Below are positions 2,882 to 58,287 of a stretch of DNA of 64,000 nucleotides, one piece after another. A program made the position numbers and the translations under genes. Below the pieces are notes generated by a model, which was not told the origin of the DNA, did no database searches, and saw only the letters and a list, made by a program, of their open reading frames with translations. The stretch comes from Paracamarosporium sp. OC-R06-R3 (Eukaryota > Ascomycota > Dothideomycetes > Pleosporales > Didymosphaeriaceae): positions 186,001-250,000 of the forward strand of contig JACVRA010000364.1 of assembly GCA_019828545.1 (NCBI GenBank), written 5' to 3'. Each line of letters starts with the position of its first letter. Position 1 is the first letter of the stretch.

Positions 2882-4300
2882 GGATGCCGTCTGCGTTCAC
2901 TATCATCCAGGCAGCGCTTTTGCAGCCGTGCATTTTCACATGCTCTGTTATAGCTGGATGGCCTCTGGATGTCTATGGTATAGGTAAAAACACAACACAG
3001 GCGGCTTTGCTCCGTAGTATACGATGAGAGAGCTCGGCAGTGGCGTTCGCATGTCTTCATGAGATTTCCATGCGTTCTTCACGGCCGTTGGTCATTGCTC
3101 GAAACGGGTTTATGCACATTTGTTTCTATCCTGGTGTTATTGCGAAAGGTTCATGGCTGCATATATGAGGTTCATGGTATTCAACTTCGAGCTTCCACCG
3201 TTGGGACTACAAAAGTTGATTATAATGGAAGGCGCTACCACAAACACTCGGAATATCGCAGCCTTGTTGAGTTAGTTCAATGACTCTCATAGCGGGCGAT
3301 AAGTCCATTCAGTTCCAATACTAATAGCGTTGAGTGAAGTGTTCAGCCGAGAATAGCACTAATGGAAAAAACATTGAGATGTTAGATCTGTCTGCATTCT
3401 CCAATTAATCAATGAGCTCTACGTTGTCATCCCCTCCCAGGTCCAACACTACTCAATTAAGCGACAACACAATAAAACAAAGTGAATGGTATTTTGAACT
3501 GACTGCTACGGATAGAATACAATATCACGGTGCCTCGCCAAACCTTCAAGGGGTAGCCTTAAGACGCCAGTTCTCGGCCAATGATTTTCTCATCCGAGTA
3601 AAGTCATGAAGAAGCGTCAATGAAAAGGGCAAGTAAATTGATCGAACAACCAATGACATGACAGTTTGGCAGTTTGACAAACCAACGCTTCGAGGATACT
3701 GTGGTTCGCAATCCGTCGCCTGTAAACCAACCCTTGTACATGTTGTCCGAATCAATATAAGCGGGGTATATTCCAACACTCAAGGAATGGGAATAATAGA
3801 AAAACAAACTCAACCATTGCAATATAGCTCAACTCGGGCTCAAAAGATTGTCTCACATACTGGACGTTTCCTTGTTCTGTTCAGGTCAACCACTATCTCC
3901 TACGACGAAGGCTGATTTGATGAAGGTGCTTCATCACGCCTGGCGAAGCCTCGCCTACATGGAAAGTTCGCCTACTGTAGCCAAGGATTTGGTGTGGAAA
4001 CGACGCTGCCCATTGTCGGATAAACTGAAGTTTCGGCTCCCTTTGCCGACACTATTTTCCCCACAACTCAACGCAATTGGTTGAAGCTCTGCGCTGCTGG
4101 TGCTAAAGACGCAGATCGCATTGGACATGCACAAGGGCGCTCCATTGTTTGTAATAGAATCATGACTCTTCTCGGGAATAACGAGCTTTTCCTTTTGCGT
4201 TTCGTACAACGCCAGTGTTTAAAACTAAACGCCTTTGCCTCCATGTTTAGCTTTGTACTTGCTTCCCGTGATACTAAACAGCTCCAGGTACGACAGAAAA
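2882..4300. other. Intergenic, no gene recognised
   Basis: About 1.4 kb between the splicing factor and the MFS transporter. Only short open frames occur on either strand, and none resembles a known domain or has convincing splice partners. It is relatively A+T-rich and should contain the 3' end of one gene and the promoter of the next. Confidence 0.5.
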
Positions 4301-5752
4301 ATGGCTTTTGCGAGCGGCGATGTTCGTGACCCGGAGAAAAACGCCAACCACACCGGTAACGTCATTTCCGAGGATGCAGAACGTGGATTAAGAGCATGGC
4401 CCAGCACACGCGACGATGAAATACAGGAAGCTGTAGAAGCACAAGAGCAGGACATTGAACCCCATGAAAAAGCAACGGAGAGACCGCCACATGACATCTC
4501 GAAAGTATTCTCAAGAAGATCTGCGGCATCAAGTTGGAGAGACCCCGGTCCTGCACCAGATGGTGGCACAACAGCCTGGATACAAGTTTTGTGTGTACAC
4601 ATTACAGTCTTTAACACGTTTGGTTTCTTTACTTCTTTCGGTGTTTTCCAAACGTATTATCAGACAACGTTAGGCATTGCGCCCTCCACCATCTCATGGA
4701 TTGGATCTTTGCAAGTTTTCCTCCTCTTCGGCATTGGCACCTTTACCGGAAGAGCGACTGATGCGGGTCTCTTCCGTCCGTGTTATATCGCAGGCGCCGT
4801 GTTCCAGATTTTGGGTGTCTTCACAATGGCTGAAAGTACGAAGCTATGGCATCTGTTCCTGTCGCAAGCCATATGCCTTGGAATCTCCAACGGCCTGCAG
4901 TTCTGCCCAGCAATGGCCGTTGTATCGACGTATTTCGTAAAAAGGAGAGCTTTTGCAATGGGCTTGACAGCGCTAGGATCTTGTACGGGAGGGGTCATTA
5001 TGCCCGTCATTGTCCAGCAGTGCCTCCCACGCCTCGGCTTCCCTTGGACAATCCGCATTATCGGCTTCATTATGCTCGCTCTCAACATTGTTGCCATTGC
5101 GCTGTTCCGTACGCGTCTTCCACCACGTCGGAGTGGCCCAATTGTAGACTGGGCCTCCTTTTGCGAACTACCTTACTCGCTCTTCTGCACCGCCATGTTC
5201 TTCAATTTCTGGGGCCTGTACTTCGCTTTCTTCTACGTCGGCGCATACGGGCGCAATATCCTGGGAGTTCCATACCAGCAATCTATCAATCTGTTGCTGG
5301 TCACCGTCTGCATGGGCTTCATCTTTCGTCTCCTCCCCACATACTACGCCGATAAGATTGGTTCCCTCAATGTGCTCATTCCATTCGCTTTTCTCTGCAG
5401 CCTCATGATGTATTCTTGGATCGGCATCCGCAGCGTAGGCGGTCTGTACGCTTTTGCTGCCATCTATGGGTCCGGATCCGCGGTTATCCAAGCACTATGG
5501 CCTGCCGTGATTGGCAAGTGCAGTAAAGTGCAGGATTTGAAGAAAGCAGGTGTGCGGATGGGCATGGCATTTACGATTGTGAGCTTTGCGAGCTTGACCG
5601 GGCCGCCGCTCGCTGGGGCGTTAATTCAGACGGCTGGTGGAAGCTATACATATGCGAATGTATGGGCAGGAACAAGTTTTCTTGTTGGATCATGCCTGTT
5701 GGTGGCGACGAGGTGGGCGCTTGTGGGCTGGGATTGGAAGGCTAATGTTTAA
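4301..5752 (+). CDS. MFS transporter, monocarboxylate-porter (MCT/MCH) type
   Basis: A single exon encodes 483 aa, the usual length for this family. A hydrophilic N-terminal tail of about 90 residues is followed by PDGGTTAWIQVL, the fungal form of the MCT signature PDGGWGW at the start of TM1. About twelve hydrophobic segments follow in two halves. Yeast relatives (MCH1-5) include a riboflavin importer, and others probably carry monocarboxylates or secondary metabolites, so the substrate cannot be read from sequence. ATG 4301 (AAAAATGGC) begins the normal acidic N-tail; an in-frame upstream ATG at 4235 is possible but less likely. The gene ends only 81 bp from the end of the convergent P450 gene, so their 3' ends may overlap. 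No introns were seen. Confidence 0.9.
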   Translation: MAFASGDVRDPEKNANHTGNVISEDAERGLRAWPSTRDDEIQEAVEAQEQDIEPHEKATERPPHDISKVFSRRSAASSWRDPGPAPDGGTTAWIQVLCVHITVFNTFGFFTSFGVFQTYYQTTLGIAPSTISWIGSLQVFLLFGIGTFTGRATDAGLFRPCYIAGAVFQILGVFTMAESTKLWHLFLSQAICLGISNGLQFCPAMAVVSTYFVKRRAFAMGLTALGSCTGGVIMPVIVQQCLPRLGFPWTIRIIGFIMLALNIVAIALFRTRLPPRRSGPIVDWASFCELPYSLFCTAMFFNFWGLYFAFFYVGAYGRNILGVPYQQSINLLLVTVCMGFIFRLLPTYYADKIGSLNVLIPFAFLCSLMMYSWIGIRSVGGLYAFAAIYGSGSAVIQALWPAVIGKCSKVQDLKKAGVRMGMAFTIVSFASLTGPPLAGALIQTAGGSYTYANVWAGTSFLVGSCLLVATRWALVGWDWKANV

Positions 5753-5833
5753 TCTTTACAGAAGAACCTTGTTCTGGAAGGTACAATACGTGTGTTGAAT
5801 AAGAAATCCAGACCATATTAGGAATAAATATAA

Positions 5834-7667
5834 CTACCCGTGAATGGCGCGTCTCTTGAATTGTACTGTTGGACCATCTCGTGCCGCAATGTACACATCT
5901 TGTAGCTGATATACGCCCTTTCCCTCGTGTCCTGGAGCTCTTTTCACCTCGAATCGATGCAATGTCCGAGCAATGGTCAACAACAGCTCGAGAACGGCCA
6001 AATTTTGCCCTGGACATGAACCTGGTCCCTGCGCAAAAGGGTGGAAATTGGAACGAAGTATCTTAACCTCTTCCTGACTTACTTCTGTCTTCTTATCGGG
6101 AATCCATCGTTCAGGTCTGAAGTCTTCAGAATCGCCATACACATCGTCGTTGTGACCAGCTACCCAGTTCGAGGCACCTACGATCGTCCCTTGCGGGTAG
6201 TAATCGCCACTGATTATCGCACCGCCTTTCAAGACCTCTCTTGGAAGATCACTAGGTAAGCTAGGACTCAGACGCATCGTTTCGTCGAGGCACGCTCTAA
6301 GATATACGCAGGACAGCAATTGCGATCCAGAAGTAATCTTCTCGGGTGAAGAAAATTTGGAAAGAACCTCTGAAACTGCTTTCTCGTACGCCATAGGATT
6401 GCACGTCAGATAGAACACCATAGCAGCGAGAGTAAGCGAAGCGGTATCGCTTCCAGCGATGATAAACGTATGTGCTTCACCGAAAAGCTCGCTGTCGGTA
6501 AATGCAGGGCTACCATCCTCTTTCTTTGCGTTTTTCAGAAACCAGAACATATCTTGTCGTTGCTCCCCCGCGTTCTTTTCCACTTCGTGTCTTTCAAGGC
6601 GCTTGAACGCGTAGTCTTTTACCCACCTGGAATACTCTTGGACTTCGGGGGGCGAGATGGCGTTAAGGAAGTCGTCAAGACCGCGCGGCTTCAGCCAGAT
6701 GATTAGGCTGAGCATAGGGGACCGTGTAAGCTAATGGATGTTTAGCTATACACACGTGCTGGTTAGTAAGTATCATACGTACTCGATACATAAACTTCAA
6801 GTTTTGAACCATCAAATGCGGCATTATTTTCCGCGGATTTTCACCAGGCTCTTTGATATTGAAAGACGCCCCGAAAGAGAGGTCTCCCATAATGTCGAAC
6901 AGAAGCGCATCTGCGAGCTTTGCAAAATTTGTAGGTTGGGACCATTCATTGTCTGTCGTCAGAAGTTGGTTCCAGCGATCGATGTGCTGTACTATGAAAG
7001 GCTCCGCTGCCCGCAAGGATTGCTCCGTGAAAGCTTGATTCAATAGTTTACGTAGCCGAGCGTGCTCTTTTTTATCTGTCGTTAGGAATGTGCTTCGCTC
7101 CTCTGCATACTTTCTCCAACCTTCGTAGAATGGCGCTCTTTGAACATTGGCTTTAACATTGTAGATATCCCGATATGCAGCCTATATAAGAGTATTAAAG
7201 TCAGTATATGTGTGTTAAAAGGGGATGTCCAACTCTTTGCTTTGATAGTGCATCGTCACGTGAGATATGGAATCGTCACATAACCTTGTGGAGACGAAAT
7301 CCAAGCTTACGTACAGGGTCACGAAATACGACGGCATTTGGGGTAATGCGCACTCTGGGACCTAGGTTTATTAGTCAACAGTGAGCTTCCTTTGGTATAC
7401 GAATACTGTTTACCATAAGTCTGGTGCAACTTCGCTAGCCATAGATGACGATTACCAGTCCTGGTGTGGTACCAGGACGGTATACCGGAAACGCAGGCCA
7501 TTAACGGCCCTGGAACATTAGACAGTGAATGAAAGAAGAAGTCGTATATAATCTGTGAAACTATCTTCTCATTGTTAGCCAAACTTCTCCTACAAAGGCT
7601 GATCATGCTGACGTACCGTAACGACCAATAACACGGCGGCAAGAGCCAACACCCGCTCGGAAGTCAT
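5834..7667 (-). CDS. Cytochrome P450 monooxygenase
   Basis: Five exons (7667-7617, 7552-7414, 7361-7315, 7181-6783, 6730-5834) encode 510 aa. An N-terminal membrane anchor (SERVLALAAVLLVV) is followed by the hinge NVPGP. The oxygen-binding helix I motif AGSDTAS is near residue 305, the K-helix ETMR near 362, the PERF-like block FRPERW, and the haem-thiolate loop FAQGPGSCPG has its Cys near 451. The microsomal type fits an ER-anchored enzyme fed by cytochrome P450 reductase. The canonical Arg of FxxGxRxCxG is Gly here, which is unusual. All introns have good consensus ends (GTACGT/GTAAAC donors) and consistent phases; the third is 133 nt. It lies tail to tail with an MFS transporter. The overall pattern resembles fungal secondary-metabolism P450s, but no specific CYP family or substrate is assigned. 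Confidence 0.9.
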
Positions 7668-53322: not shown

Positions 53323-53660
53323 CTAGTTCTTGACAATGTTGAAGCTAAGCGGCACGCCATCAGCGCGGGCGTAGCTGGGAGCTTCAGCCTCCGCATCTTT
53401 CTTGACGATGTTGAAACTCAGAGGTACACCGTCAGCGCGAGCGTACCTAGGAACTTCGGCCTCAGCATCCTTCTTGACGATGTTAAAGCTGAGCGGCACG
53501 CCGTCAGCACGGGCGTAGCTCAGAGCCTCAGCCTCGGGCACGCGTTTGTCGTCTACAGATGATCAGAAGTGCGTTCGACGTACTACCACAAGGACTTACT
53601 GATCGGTGCAGCTACCGCGAAGGAAGCGACGGACACCAGAGCAAGAACCGGGACCTTCAT
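53323..53660 (-). CDS. Secreted repeat-containing peptide precursor (kexin-processed, candidate dikaritin-type RiPP precursor)
   Basis: Two exons, 53660-53600 and 53552-53323, encode 96 aa. Residues 1-18 are a signal peptide (MKVPVLALVSVASFAVAA). After the kexin site KR (23-24) come three units of exactly 24 residues (25-48, 49-72, 73-96). Each unit has an acidic-Ala spacer (VPEAEALS, DAEAEVPR, DAEAEAPS), the invariant core YARADGVPLSFNIV and a dibasic end (KK, KK, then KN at the terminus). This is the layout of fungal kexin-processed peptide precursors such as UstA. The Ala-containing dipeptides would suit a Ste13-like dipeptidyl aminopeptidase. An UstYa-family gene lies head to head 1 kb away. 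The core lacks Cys and Trp, so an alpha-pheromone is unlikely. The 47 nt intron is phase 1. The mature product is not known. Confidence 0.85.
53326..53541 (-). repeat. Three 72 bp in-frame tandem repeats encoding the core peptide
   Basis: Units at 53541-53470, 53469-53398 and 53397-53326, with no spacer. Each encodes 24 residues containing the same 14-residue core. Ten of the 14 core codons differ between copies, always synonymously (for example Leu CTC/CTG/CTT, Pro CCG/CCT, Ser AGC/AGT). Confidence 0.95.
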
Positions 53661-54660
53661 GTTGGCTGGGCGTTGGGGCTGGAGTGTAGAGCTCAATGAA
53701 GAGATGTCATGCCAACATGTAAAGTTGCCAGGCTTTATACAGTCTGTCCAGAAGACTACAGACTGCAACCACCGCTTAGATGCGGCTGCCACTCCCTGTC
53801 GACCGACTTTTAAGAGAGGATTCCATTGATGGGATTACTTGTTCGATAGGAAGCCTTATGCCGCGTACGTTTCTCTCCTTCCTGTCCTGACCGAAGTAGC
53901 TACAATCGCTGACGTTCTCGAAGCCGTTAACCAGGTTTGTATCCCGGCATATGCGTCTGTTATCTGAACCACCGACATGGTCTCCGGGTACATGCACGTT
54001 GCAGCGAATCCGGCTTTCCGGTACTATATACATGATATCTCGCTTTGAGTATGTATAATCAGAACTATCTCTTTTGCGTACATGAAAACCTGTGTACTGT
54101 CTAGCATAGGATTCTACAATGTGTCTAAACAAATTCTCACACCTCTTTCTTTGTACGGCCGTAGACATCTAAGATATGCTAATAGATGCATACTATCACC
54201 GCACCGAATCAAGCTTGAGCCTAGAAGTTTTCGGCCCACCACTTCGATCAACGTCTACACAGGCGAGGCCTTATCACCTTCCCATTACAGTAGCTGTAGG
54301 ATTCCTAACCCCACTAGGGACTATTCAACCCTTCGTATACACTTCGCAGTAGCTTTAGAGAGGTAAGGCCGACTACAGGCGGCACACGACATCTACAGTC
54401 GCATTGCCTCATGTAGGAAGATTCTCGGAGTAGTCTTACCGATGAATGCCAAGTGATAACCATCGTGGTAGAACGAATAGTAACCCCCAGAACCGAGTCG
54501 CGAACGGCGCAAATACTCAGTTCAGATAGATGAGGGGGCGAAAACAGTCCCGTGAGTGTGCTGGCACATGAAAATTTCTCAAGACGCATCCGTCTACATT
54601 CTCTGGTTCCCATGGTCGGCCACAACTTCCTTCACCATCGAAGACTGTAAGACTGTAAAG
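53661..54660. promoter_or_regulatory. Bidirectional promoter region, peptide precursor / UstYa-family gene
   Basis: Exactly 1 kb between the two divergent start codons, with no coding signal recognised. It should carry both promoters, so a shared regulator is plausible. Confidence 0.5.
53734..53739 (-). promoter_or_regulatory. TATA box of the peptide precursor gene
   Basis: TATAAA on the minus strand, about 75 bp upstream of the precursor ATG, in the context CTGTATAAAGCCTGG. Position and sequence suit a strongly inducible fungal promoter; no experimental support. Confidence 0.5.
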
Positions 54661-55672
54661 ATGAAGTGGTTTCATCGGGACACGCAGTACCAGAAGGTTG
54701 TGGCAGCAGAGTCCACCGACGACCTATCACAGCATCTGCAACGACCTCTGCCACACCTCTCACGGAGAAACCTCTCCTCTCATCTGAACTCTCTCTTCTT
54801 CATCGCAAACATCATCTTCCTCTCCACACTCCTCTGGACAGCCCGCCACATCAACTCCCCAAACTACCTCCTCAAAAAGACAAACACATACACACCTCTT
54901 CTGGACCGCTTCGACTTCCCCTTCGTCAAAACCAAGAACAATGCTAGCCTCTTCAACACGCCCTACAGCATCTACAAAGACGAGCCATCGCCCAGCGTGG
55001 ACGCTGCCTGGGAGGATATCGCCGACACACCGGTGCTCGCCATCTCAAGAGAAGACGTCGTAAAGATGGGCAAAGACCCCGAGTACGTAGTCGGCGTGCC
55101 TCCAGAGTTCGGTAAGCCTCCAACGTTCCATGTTTGAATTTAAAAAAGAAACCCCCCCGGGGGGAAACGAAACGCAGGCTGACCCAACAACTCACGCAGG
55201 CTACGGAAGTGACAAGTTCTTCGCCGTCAACGACGGCCAGCACCTGATCCACTGCCTCAACGAGCTCCGCAAGTTCGCCCACTACGACTACTACTACGCG
55301 CCCAAGTACGGCGCGCCCAGCAACCTGCCAGCGCTCATCGCGGCGCACAGATCGCACTGCGTGGGCGTGCTGCTGGATGCGCTGACGTGCCAGCCGAGCT
55401 TGAACATGGTGGTGTGGGAGTGGATGGAGGGGCACAACGAGCCGTGGCCGGACTTCGACACGTGGAGGACGTGCTATGACCACGGTAAGTTTTATGAGTG
55501 GCAGAGGGAGGCGCAGGTTGATGTGTTGAAGACGAAGGGGTGGGACTGGGCGAAGGGGAGGGGGAAGGAAAGGCCGGAGGAGGAGGGGATGAAGGCGGTG
55601 AAGATGAAAGGTGGGGATGCGGAGAGTGGTGCGCATCAGGGGCATGGAGGGCATGGAGGACACTGGTCATGA
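54661..55672 (+). CDS. UstYa-family (DUF3328) oxidase-like membrane protein
   Basis: Two exons, 54661-55111 and 55200-55672, encode 307 aa. A cytoplasmic N-tail is followed by one TM helix (about 43-60, NSLFFIANIIFLSTLLW) and a lumenal domain. Both family signature motifs are intact: HLIHC (165-169) with LNELRKF, and HRSHC (200-204) followed by the VGVLLDALTCQPSL segment. The acidic, Trp-rich end is PWPDFDTWRTCYDH. UstYa/UstYb proteins are oxidases that cyclise or crosslink Tyr-containing core peptides of ustiloxin, asperipin and phomopsin (dikaritin RiPPs); others act on non-RiPP metabolites. Here it faces a Tyr-containing repeat precursor. The C-terminus has an unusual Glu/Lys then Gly/His-rich tail (HQGHGGHGGHWS). 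The 88 nt intron contains a CCCCCCCGGGGGG run. ATG 54661 gives the normal N-tail length. Confidence 0.88.
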
Positions 55673-57399: not shown

Positions 57400-58287
57400 C
57401 TAGTTGACCAAGGTGAAGGACATGCCGGACTCGAGGCGGTCGCCAGAGGCACCACCCTGGCCGCCGGTGAGGGCCTCCCAGAGGGCGGGGGTGGCATCGA
57501 GACCACCCTCGCCAGTGCAGCCGGGGCAGCGGTCCATGATGGTGGCGTCGGCGCTCTTGCCGTTGTAGGTGATGCGGATCTTCTGGTTGCACCACTTGTT
57601 GGTGGGGTTGCCAGTGGCAGGGTCGTAGGACGAGTCACCGAAGCCAGCGACGGCAAGGGCAGCAACCATGTCAGTGTCGGCGATGGGCTCACCGCAAGCA
57701 CCGAGACCGCCGGAGTAGTAGTTCATGGTGAGGGAGCCGGTGTAGGATTGGCCGCTGCCGCTGCTGCTGTCAGAGGCCTCGGTGGCGGCGGGCGCAGCAG
57801 GGGCGGAGGATGAAGGCTCGGGGGCTGGCTCAGGCGATGGCGATGGCGATGGCTCGGGTGATGGCGTTGGCTCAGGAGCAGGAGAAGAGCTGGGCTCCGG
57901 AGCAGGGGTAGGGACAACTGGCTCAGGAGTGGGAGTGGGAGAAGGAGTCTCAGAGACCACTGGGGCGGCAGAGCTTGAAGGAACCTCGGGGGCGGGCTCC
58001 GGGGTGGGAGTCTCGACGACAGGCTCCGGGGTCGAGCTGGGGACGACGGGGGCGGCCTCGGAAGTAGCAGAGGTCACGGCGGCGGCGGAGCTGGGCTGCT
58101 CGAAGAAGAGAGCGGGAGACGAAGTGGCAGCAGGGGCGCCGGTAGCCTGCTGGCCGTCCCAGACAGTGGTGTAGACCATGACAGTCTCGACGACGGTGTG
58201 GGTCTTTGTGGCATAGGCACGCTTGTTCAGAGGAGCAGCGAGAGCCAAGGAGGCGAAGAGGGTGGAAGCGATGATGGAGGACTTCAT
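57400..58287 (-). CDS. Secreted RlpA-like double-psi beta-barrel (DPBB) protein
   Basis: A single exon encodes 295 aa. Residues 1-18 are a signal peptide (MKSSIIASTLFASLALAA), followed by PLNKR, a likely kexin site. Residues about 60-185 form a Ser/Pro/Glu-rich linker with PEPAPEP-type repeats, probably O-glycosylated. The C-terminal DPBB domain (about 190-295) has GSLTMNYYSGGLGACGEPI, MVAALAVAGFGDS, WCNQKIRITYNGKSADATIMDRCPGC split as KIRITYNGKSADATIMDRC, and GGLDATPALWEALTGG. This resembles fungal expansin-like/barwin-like secreted proteins. Some relatives loosen cell walls or act in pathogenesis, but catalytic activity is not implied. Codons are strongly biased, suggesting high expression. 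Confidence 0.88.
   Translation of the reverse strand: MKSSIIASTLFASLALAAPLNKRAYATKTHTVVETVMVYTTVWDGQQATGAPAATSSPALFFEQPSSAAAVTSATSEAAPVVPSSTPEPVVETPTPEPAPEVPSSSAAPVVSETPSPTPTPEPVVPTPAPEPSSSPAPEPTPSPEPSPSPSPEPAPEPSSSAPAAPAATEASDSSSGSGQSYTGSLTMNYYSGGLGACGEPIADTDMVAALAVAGFGDSSYDPATGNPTNKWCNQKIRITYNGKSADATIMDRCPGCTGEGGLDATPALWEALTGGQGGASGDRLESGMSFTLVN

Follow-up and report, generated by a model that had tools for sequence, protein, structure and literature searches.

A divergent pair of a kexin-type repeat precursor gene and an UstYa gene in Paracamarosporium sp. OC-R06-R3, probably a two-gene dikaritin-type RiPP module

We analysed a stretch of 64,000 nucleotides (the window) on contig C172 of Paracamarosporium sp. 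OC-R06-R3, in which two genes, a putative kexin-type repeat precursor (KEP) and a member of the UstYa family, lie next to each other in divergent orientation. Both genes are intact as read. In window positions, the locus contains the following features.

53323..53552, minus strand: precursor exon 2 including the stop codon, with KR and KK linkers, three YARADGVPLSFNIV cores and a C-terminal KN
53553..53599, minus strand: precursor intron, 47 nt, GTAAGT...TAG, phase 1
53600..53660, minus strand: precursor exon 1, with the signal peptide MKVPVLALVSVASFAVAAPI, assigned by eye after splicing
53661..54660, no strand: intergenic region, 1,000 nt between the two divergent start codons
54661..55111, plus strand: UstYa exon 1, with an N-terminal membrane helix (by eye)
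55112..55199, plus strand: UstYa intron, 88 nt
55200..55672, plus strand: UstYa exon 2 including the stop codon, with the HLIHC and HRSHC motifs and a His-rich C-terminal tail

The precursor gene is present in a single copy in the genome and encodes a predicted secreted protein of 96 amino acids; its only intron is placed after the signal peptide. When the 47-nt intron was spliced out, the protein showed the three units of 24 residues, 72 nt apart, that had been described in a sequence-only reading of the window. The 14-residue core of each unit, YARADGVPLSFNIV, runs from Tyr to Val and is identical at the protein level in all three. That reading had also given every unit dibasic ends. The linkers are indeed dibasic, KR ahead of the first unit and KK ahead of the second and third, but the protein terminates in KN, and only two of the three units are flanked by dibasic sites on both sides; the last is dibasic in front only. 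The spacers follow the linkers as KR-VPEAEA, KK-DAEAEV and KK-DAEAEA, so that each Kex2 site is followed by XA/XP dipeptides of the Ste13 type. A KEP as defined by Umemura 2020 has at least three tandem repeats of at least eight residues between KR, KK, RK or RR. In Pfam the precursor scored highest with DUF5817_CT, but its 21.2 bits fall short of the cut-off (29), and the match was rejected as not meaningful.

Comparison of the three units at the nucleotide level showed that the YARADGVPLSFNIV core is under selection. The core copies differ at ten nucleotide sites, all of them silent third positions, and ten of the 14 codons vary, every one synonymously. In the three spacers, of ten residues each, we counted 14 variable sites; nine of the ten codons vary, only three of these nine synonymously, and six of the ten residues differ among the units. 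Given that the synonymous fraction of random changes in the core is 0.272, ten consecutive silent changes would be expected with a probability of about 2e-6. Because the silent sites have drifted, recent copying is ruled out as the source of the core identity. It is the combination of silent-only variation in the core with changing spacers that leads us to conclude that selection keeps the 14 core residues and not the spacers.

The second gene encodes a protein of 307 amino acids that matched PF11807 with 143.7 bits (cut-off 25) and contains both HxxHC motifs, as HLIHC and HRSHC, thus confirming the membrane protein with two such motifs that the sequence-only reading had placed about 1 kb from the precursor. 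At E ≤0.001, 17 relatives were obtained in a protein search; they include proteins of Paraphaeosphaeria sporulosa (75% identity over 83%), Kalmusia (65% over 90%), Bimuria (77% over 71%), Ascochyta rabiei (57% identity), Lizonia (59%) and Didymosphaeria (54%), names that would place the host among the Pleosporales, probably close to the Didymosphaeriaceae. Relatives have the same two motifs: in an alignment of 11 of them, a CQPS stretch and most residues of both HxxHC motifs were invariant or nearly so. This count was made without P0010, P0011, P0013, P0014, P0016 and P0018; the C-terminal parts of P0011, P0013 and P0014 look mis-spliced, hence their omission. An AlphaFold2 model of the relative P0002 (mean pLDDT 53.5) was too poor for a fold search, and comparison with solved structures gave no meaningful match, only a single chain at E 0.8. 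The C-terminus of the protein (window 55600-55672) is a His/Gly-rich tail, HQGHGGHGGHWS, and similar tails are present in P0002, P0003 and P0004; it possibly binds metal.

The two genes are arranged head to head, and the 1,000 nt that separate their start codons may serve as a shared promoter. Next to the pair lie PNK3P and Med18 genes to one side and, to the other, an Hva1-TUDOR gene. A Pfam scan of 38 window ORFs, chosen among the longer ones, revealed neither a second UstYa nor a methyltransferase, S41 peptidase or tyrosinase, and a genome-wide profile search gave neither a tyrosinase match nor another UstYa match on contig C172. The earlier remark that a methyltransferase, a tyrosinase and a second UstY gene are lacking nearby therefore agrees with our results. 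The same remark on the S41 peptidase holds for the scanned window ORFs, but not for the contig, on which a secreted S41 peptidase is encoded 26.7 kb beyond the UstYa gene, outside the window.

C172:267244-269780 (L043 1744-4280): secreted S41 peptidase gene, with its S41 match at C172:268338-268568

Such a gene is what would be expected if the pair belonged to a larger dikaritin pathway with further enzymes elsewhere: S41 peptidases belong to the ustiloxin and phomopsin clusters (PMC6941272), and this one is among only six S41 matches in a genome of 43 Mb. However, it was picked after the list of matches had been viewed, the Med18, PNK3P and Hva1-TUDOR genes flank the pair closely, and the fetched stretches of all ten other KEP places described below gave no S41 or tyrosinase match. 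As nothing ties the S41 gene to the pair, we did not accept it as a cluster member, and we consider a larger pathway of this kind improbable. Two other loci in the window may be mentioned. An MFS transporter gene next to a cytochrome P450 gene (window 4229-6730), about 47 kb from the pair, is possibly part of another metabolite locus. The gene at window 57400-58287 encodes a secreted protein that has a linker rich in Pro, Ser and Glu and ends, by eye, in an expansin-like domain; this protein had no Pfam match at E 0.01.

The whole genome contains 75 exon matches to PF11807, corresponding to about 55 genes at about 47 places. Besides the window's own place, 19 of these were examined, mainly those with the highest PF11807 scores, in stretches of 7 to 10 kb, using a detector set to report three or more repeats with dibasic sites. 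At ten of the 19 places (L017, L019, L020, L021, L022, L024, L027, L028, L030 and L031) the fetched stretch contained a KEP-like gene, the cores being unrelated, and each of the ten has an UstYa gene in divergent orientation to the KEP. With orientation left to chance (1 in 4), ten out of ten would occur with a probability of about 1e-6, a figure to be read with the reservation that the pairs are not independent if duplication links them. It is clear from these ten places, all with a divergent UstYa gene, that the head-to-head KEP/UstYa pair is a recurring module in this fungus. At the other nine places no KEP was detected, either with the same detector or with a looser one, and the first detector likewise gave no KEP for the remainder of the 64-kb window, for L015 (10 kb beyond the window), or for L016 and L018, the last three stretches together covering 29 kb.

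The ten places differ in some details. A single UstYa match is present in eight of the ten stretches, whereas there are two at L019, where the second UstYa gene follows downstream and shares the direction of the KEP, and three at L030. Asperipin-2a also has a single UstYa (Umemura 2020). The earlier view that the cluster in the window would be a very reduced one thus needs qualifying, as by the standard of this genome it is nothing out of the ordinary. The repeat gene at L020 has no dibasic sites between some of its units and is the weakest of the ten; that at L030 stands at the start of its contig. The distance between the KEP and the UstYa gene is 2.7 kb at L030 and 3.2 kb at L031, and genes in between are possible there. 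When P0002 was used as the query, the closest paralogue of the UstYa type in the same genome was found on C302 in two exons (48% and 46% identical), and it is likewise divergent from a KEP (L022). The L030 cores contain AYVWAS, which resembles the YVW[G/A][G/S] motif given in Le Marquer 2019. We also looked at a candidate promoter motif: 7-mers such as ACCTTCC occurred in 9 of 11 intergenic stretches and in 45 of 204 background chunks, and were rejected because they had been picked post hoc from thousands of words and are pyrimidine-rich.

With about 55 UstYa genes in the genome, some neighbours will be accidental, and the precursor could in principle be a repetitive protein with a different role, such as a surface protein or an effector, that happens to lie beside an unrelated UstYa gene. 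The frequency of KEP-like genes at the other UstYa places and the constant divergent orientation make such a coincidence very improbable.

The precursor itself has few recognisable relatives. When the 96-aa protein was used as the query, no relative at E ≤1 was found among 3,145 candidates. A query lengthened to six units, for which the 7,994 candidates sharing most words were scored, gave one relative at E 1.7e-4, the 115-aa protein P0019 from public assemblies, but this value owes much to the repeated query, and the spacer letters KKDAEA contribute to it. P0019 fell within the length range of the natural query and yet missed E 1. After masking of the spacers, the core scored 35 against P0019, a score reached by nine of 20,000 shuffled cores, P0019 being selected by the search and so not an independent case. 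The likeness lies in PLSYNIVKKDAEA versus PLSFNIVKKDAEA and in the presence of several cores between dibasic sites; on the other hand, the cores of P0019 differ among themselves, and only the artificially lengthened query found it. Judged by sequence, P0019 may be taken as a weak lead. Its weak matches elsewhere in the Paracamarosporium genome pointed to the pair on C54. The letters of YARADGVPLSFNIV were not found in the literature searched, which covered papers without the supplements in which KEP tables sit. The divergent KEP/UstYa layout was not found there either, a weak absence, as some of the searches were swamped by unrelated papers.

The spacers VPEAEA, DAEAEV and DAEAEA resemble those of ascomycete alpha-pheromone precursors, in which XA/XP dipeptides follow the Kex2 site, and a Ste13 signature is typical of alpha-pheromones. 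The gene might thus encode a linear secreted signalling peptide similar to an alpha-pheromone, with the UstYa protein acting on another substrate or being dispensable; Kex2, Kex1 and Ste13 could free the core, and the spacers fit the XA/XP pattern of Ste13. A search for pheromone genes in the genome gave no match to the exact Pleosporales-type alpha-pheromone pattern. A looser pattern gave 20 matches compared with 34 in a reversed control, with no cluster seen, and a two-Cys pattern gave 242 compared with 144 in the control, with no tandem array among the 100 matches listed. No recognised alpha-pheromone type was therefore found elsewhere, and the pheromone gene of this genome is unaccounted for. 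Unlike the ascomycete alpha-pheromones, however, the core has neither two Cys residues nor a PYGxPxG motif, and the precursor adjoins an UstYa gene; the recurrence of divergent KEP/UstYa pairs also argues against a linear peptide. The KEP at L017, which is paired with UstYa, likewise has acidic XA spacers, and the Ste13 signature is therefore not a pheromone mark here. In addition, the passages of Umemura 2020 on pheromone KEPs place them beside DUF3328 genes in three exceptions only. Taken together, a linear signalling peptide seems rather unlikely to us.

The explanation that fits best, and that we hold to be the probable one, is that the locus is a two-gene dikaritin-type RiPP module consisting of a KEP and an UstYa oxidase. 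It is supported by the silent-only variation of the core beside changing spacers, by the strong PF11807 match with both HxxHC motifs, by the KEP-like genes found at ten of 19 UstYa places and in none of the other stretches scanned, and by their invariably divergent UstYa genes. A published survey points the same way: DUF3328 genes were reported near 1,758 of 7,878 KEPs (22%) with a peak at the neighbouring gene, and Tyr in 65.6% of the cores with DUF3328 near, compared with 38.2% otherwise (Umemura 2020). UstY enzymes have been described as dicopper oxidases that make the Tyr-O to Phe-C-beta ether of asperipin-2a (PMC12186524). Several points weigh against the RiPP module: no second UstYa or tyrosinase was found on the contig, UstYa proteins also act in non-RiPP pathways, and no KEP was detected at nine of the 19 UstYa places. 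The core of 14 residues is long, named dikaritins having short cores, and two of the three linkers are KK, a poorer Kex2 site. The linkers also bear the Ste13 signature that is typical of alpha-pheromones, and Umemura 2020 saw alpha-pheromone precursors next to DUF3328 genes almost never. What the sequence-only reading had proposed, a locus for a modified peptide of the dikaritin type, stands in that the pairing is real and a RiPP of this type is its best reading; the cross-linking of the core would follow from the likeness to known systems.

Among these systems, asperipin-2a is similar in having one UstYa, a Kex2-type repeat precursor, and Tyr and Phe in the core; its core differs in sequence and length. 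With the ustiloxin and phomopsin systems the locus shares the signal peptide, the repeats between dibasic sites and an UstYa protein with two HxxHC motifs. Those clusters hold a tyrosinase, an S41 peptidase, a methyltransferase and several UstY genes (PMC6941272), whereas none of these additional genes was found in the window, the nearest S41 being that outside it. Four features expected of a dikaritin-type locus, namely a signal peptide (here by eye), kexin-separated repeats, a two-motif UstYa and closely spaced genes, are present. The ustiloxin/phomopsin type, for which the cluster should also contain several UstY genes, a tyrosinase and an S41 peptidase, does not fit. Nine dikaritin clusters were reported in one Venturia genome (PMC9632046) on grounds that apply to this pair as well. 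Like the KEPs of Umemura 2020 and Le Marquer 2019, the precursor is secreted and has three near-identical units and dibasic sites, and it has the Ste13-type dipeptides seen in some of them, but in contrast to those surveyed its third unit ends in KN and its sites are one KR and two KK. Le Marquer 2019 describes KEPs and the Ste13 signature, the XA/XP pattern of pheromone precursors; as its methods are worded, the pipeline requires four fragments, obtained with KR/RR or failing that with KK, and would not pass a precursor with one KR and two KK.

In the RiPP module, the precursor would lose its signal peptide on entry into the secretory pathway, Kex2, a Golgi protease, would cut after KR and KK, and Kex1 would trim the basic ends. 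Optionally, a Ste13-type dipeptidyl peptidase could take VP-EA-EA or DA-EA off the fronts of the units. This would leave LS-, EVPR- and PS- ahead of the three cores, and either another protease would then trim to Tyr or the products would have mixed ends. The UstYa protein, anchored in the membrane with its catalytic part in the lumen, would oxidise the YARADGVPLSFNIV core, Tyr at core position 1 being the likeliest residue to react. Most likely the Tyr phenol would form an ether with another residue's side chain, losing 2 H, and desaturation or hydroxylation, also known for the family, would be alternatives. For the linear core, [M+H]+ calculates to 1521.8060, or 1519.7903 after the loss of 2 H; with LS-, PS- and EVPR- in front the linear values would be 1721.9221, 1705.8908 and 2003.0708, and a cross-link would lower each by 2.0157. 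The reactions described for UstYa enzymes comprise cyclisation, chlorination, hydroxylation, transacylation and desaturation (PMC10880069), and because of this diversity the exact reaction is not readable from the family. We infer in which order the cleavages occur, that the genes are expressed together, and what reaction and product result.

A wider scheme is conceivable, though we regard it as doubtful: dispersed, self-contained head-to-head modules, each with one precursor, one UstYa and a shared intergenic promoter, would duplicate and keep the type of enzyme while the core is replaced, and the module in the window would alone suffice to oxidise a 14-residue core, probably to a macrocycle larger than those of the characterised dikaritins. 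If this were so, the locus would offer a two-gene system for testing the sufficiency of a single UstYa on a long core, and the parallel pairs of one precursor and one oxidase with unrelated cores would be a natural experiment on substrate recognition by UstYa. KEP/UstYa pairs are already known as a kind, and what is added here is the recurrence of the layout within this genome. For the wider field this is one more pair among very many, a sound finding but ordinary in kind; the value of the locus lies in its long core, its two-gene format and the repeated head-to-head layout. We also noticed two UstYa matches near a tyrosinase match at G000:C23:92428-96666, apparently a more complete cluster of the ustiloxin/phomopsin type.
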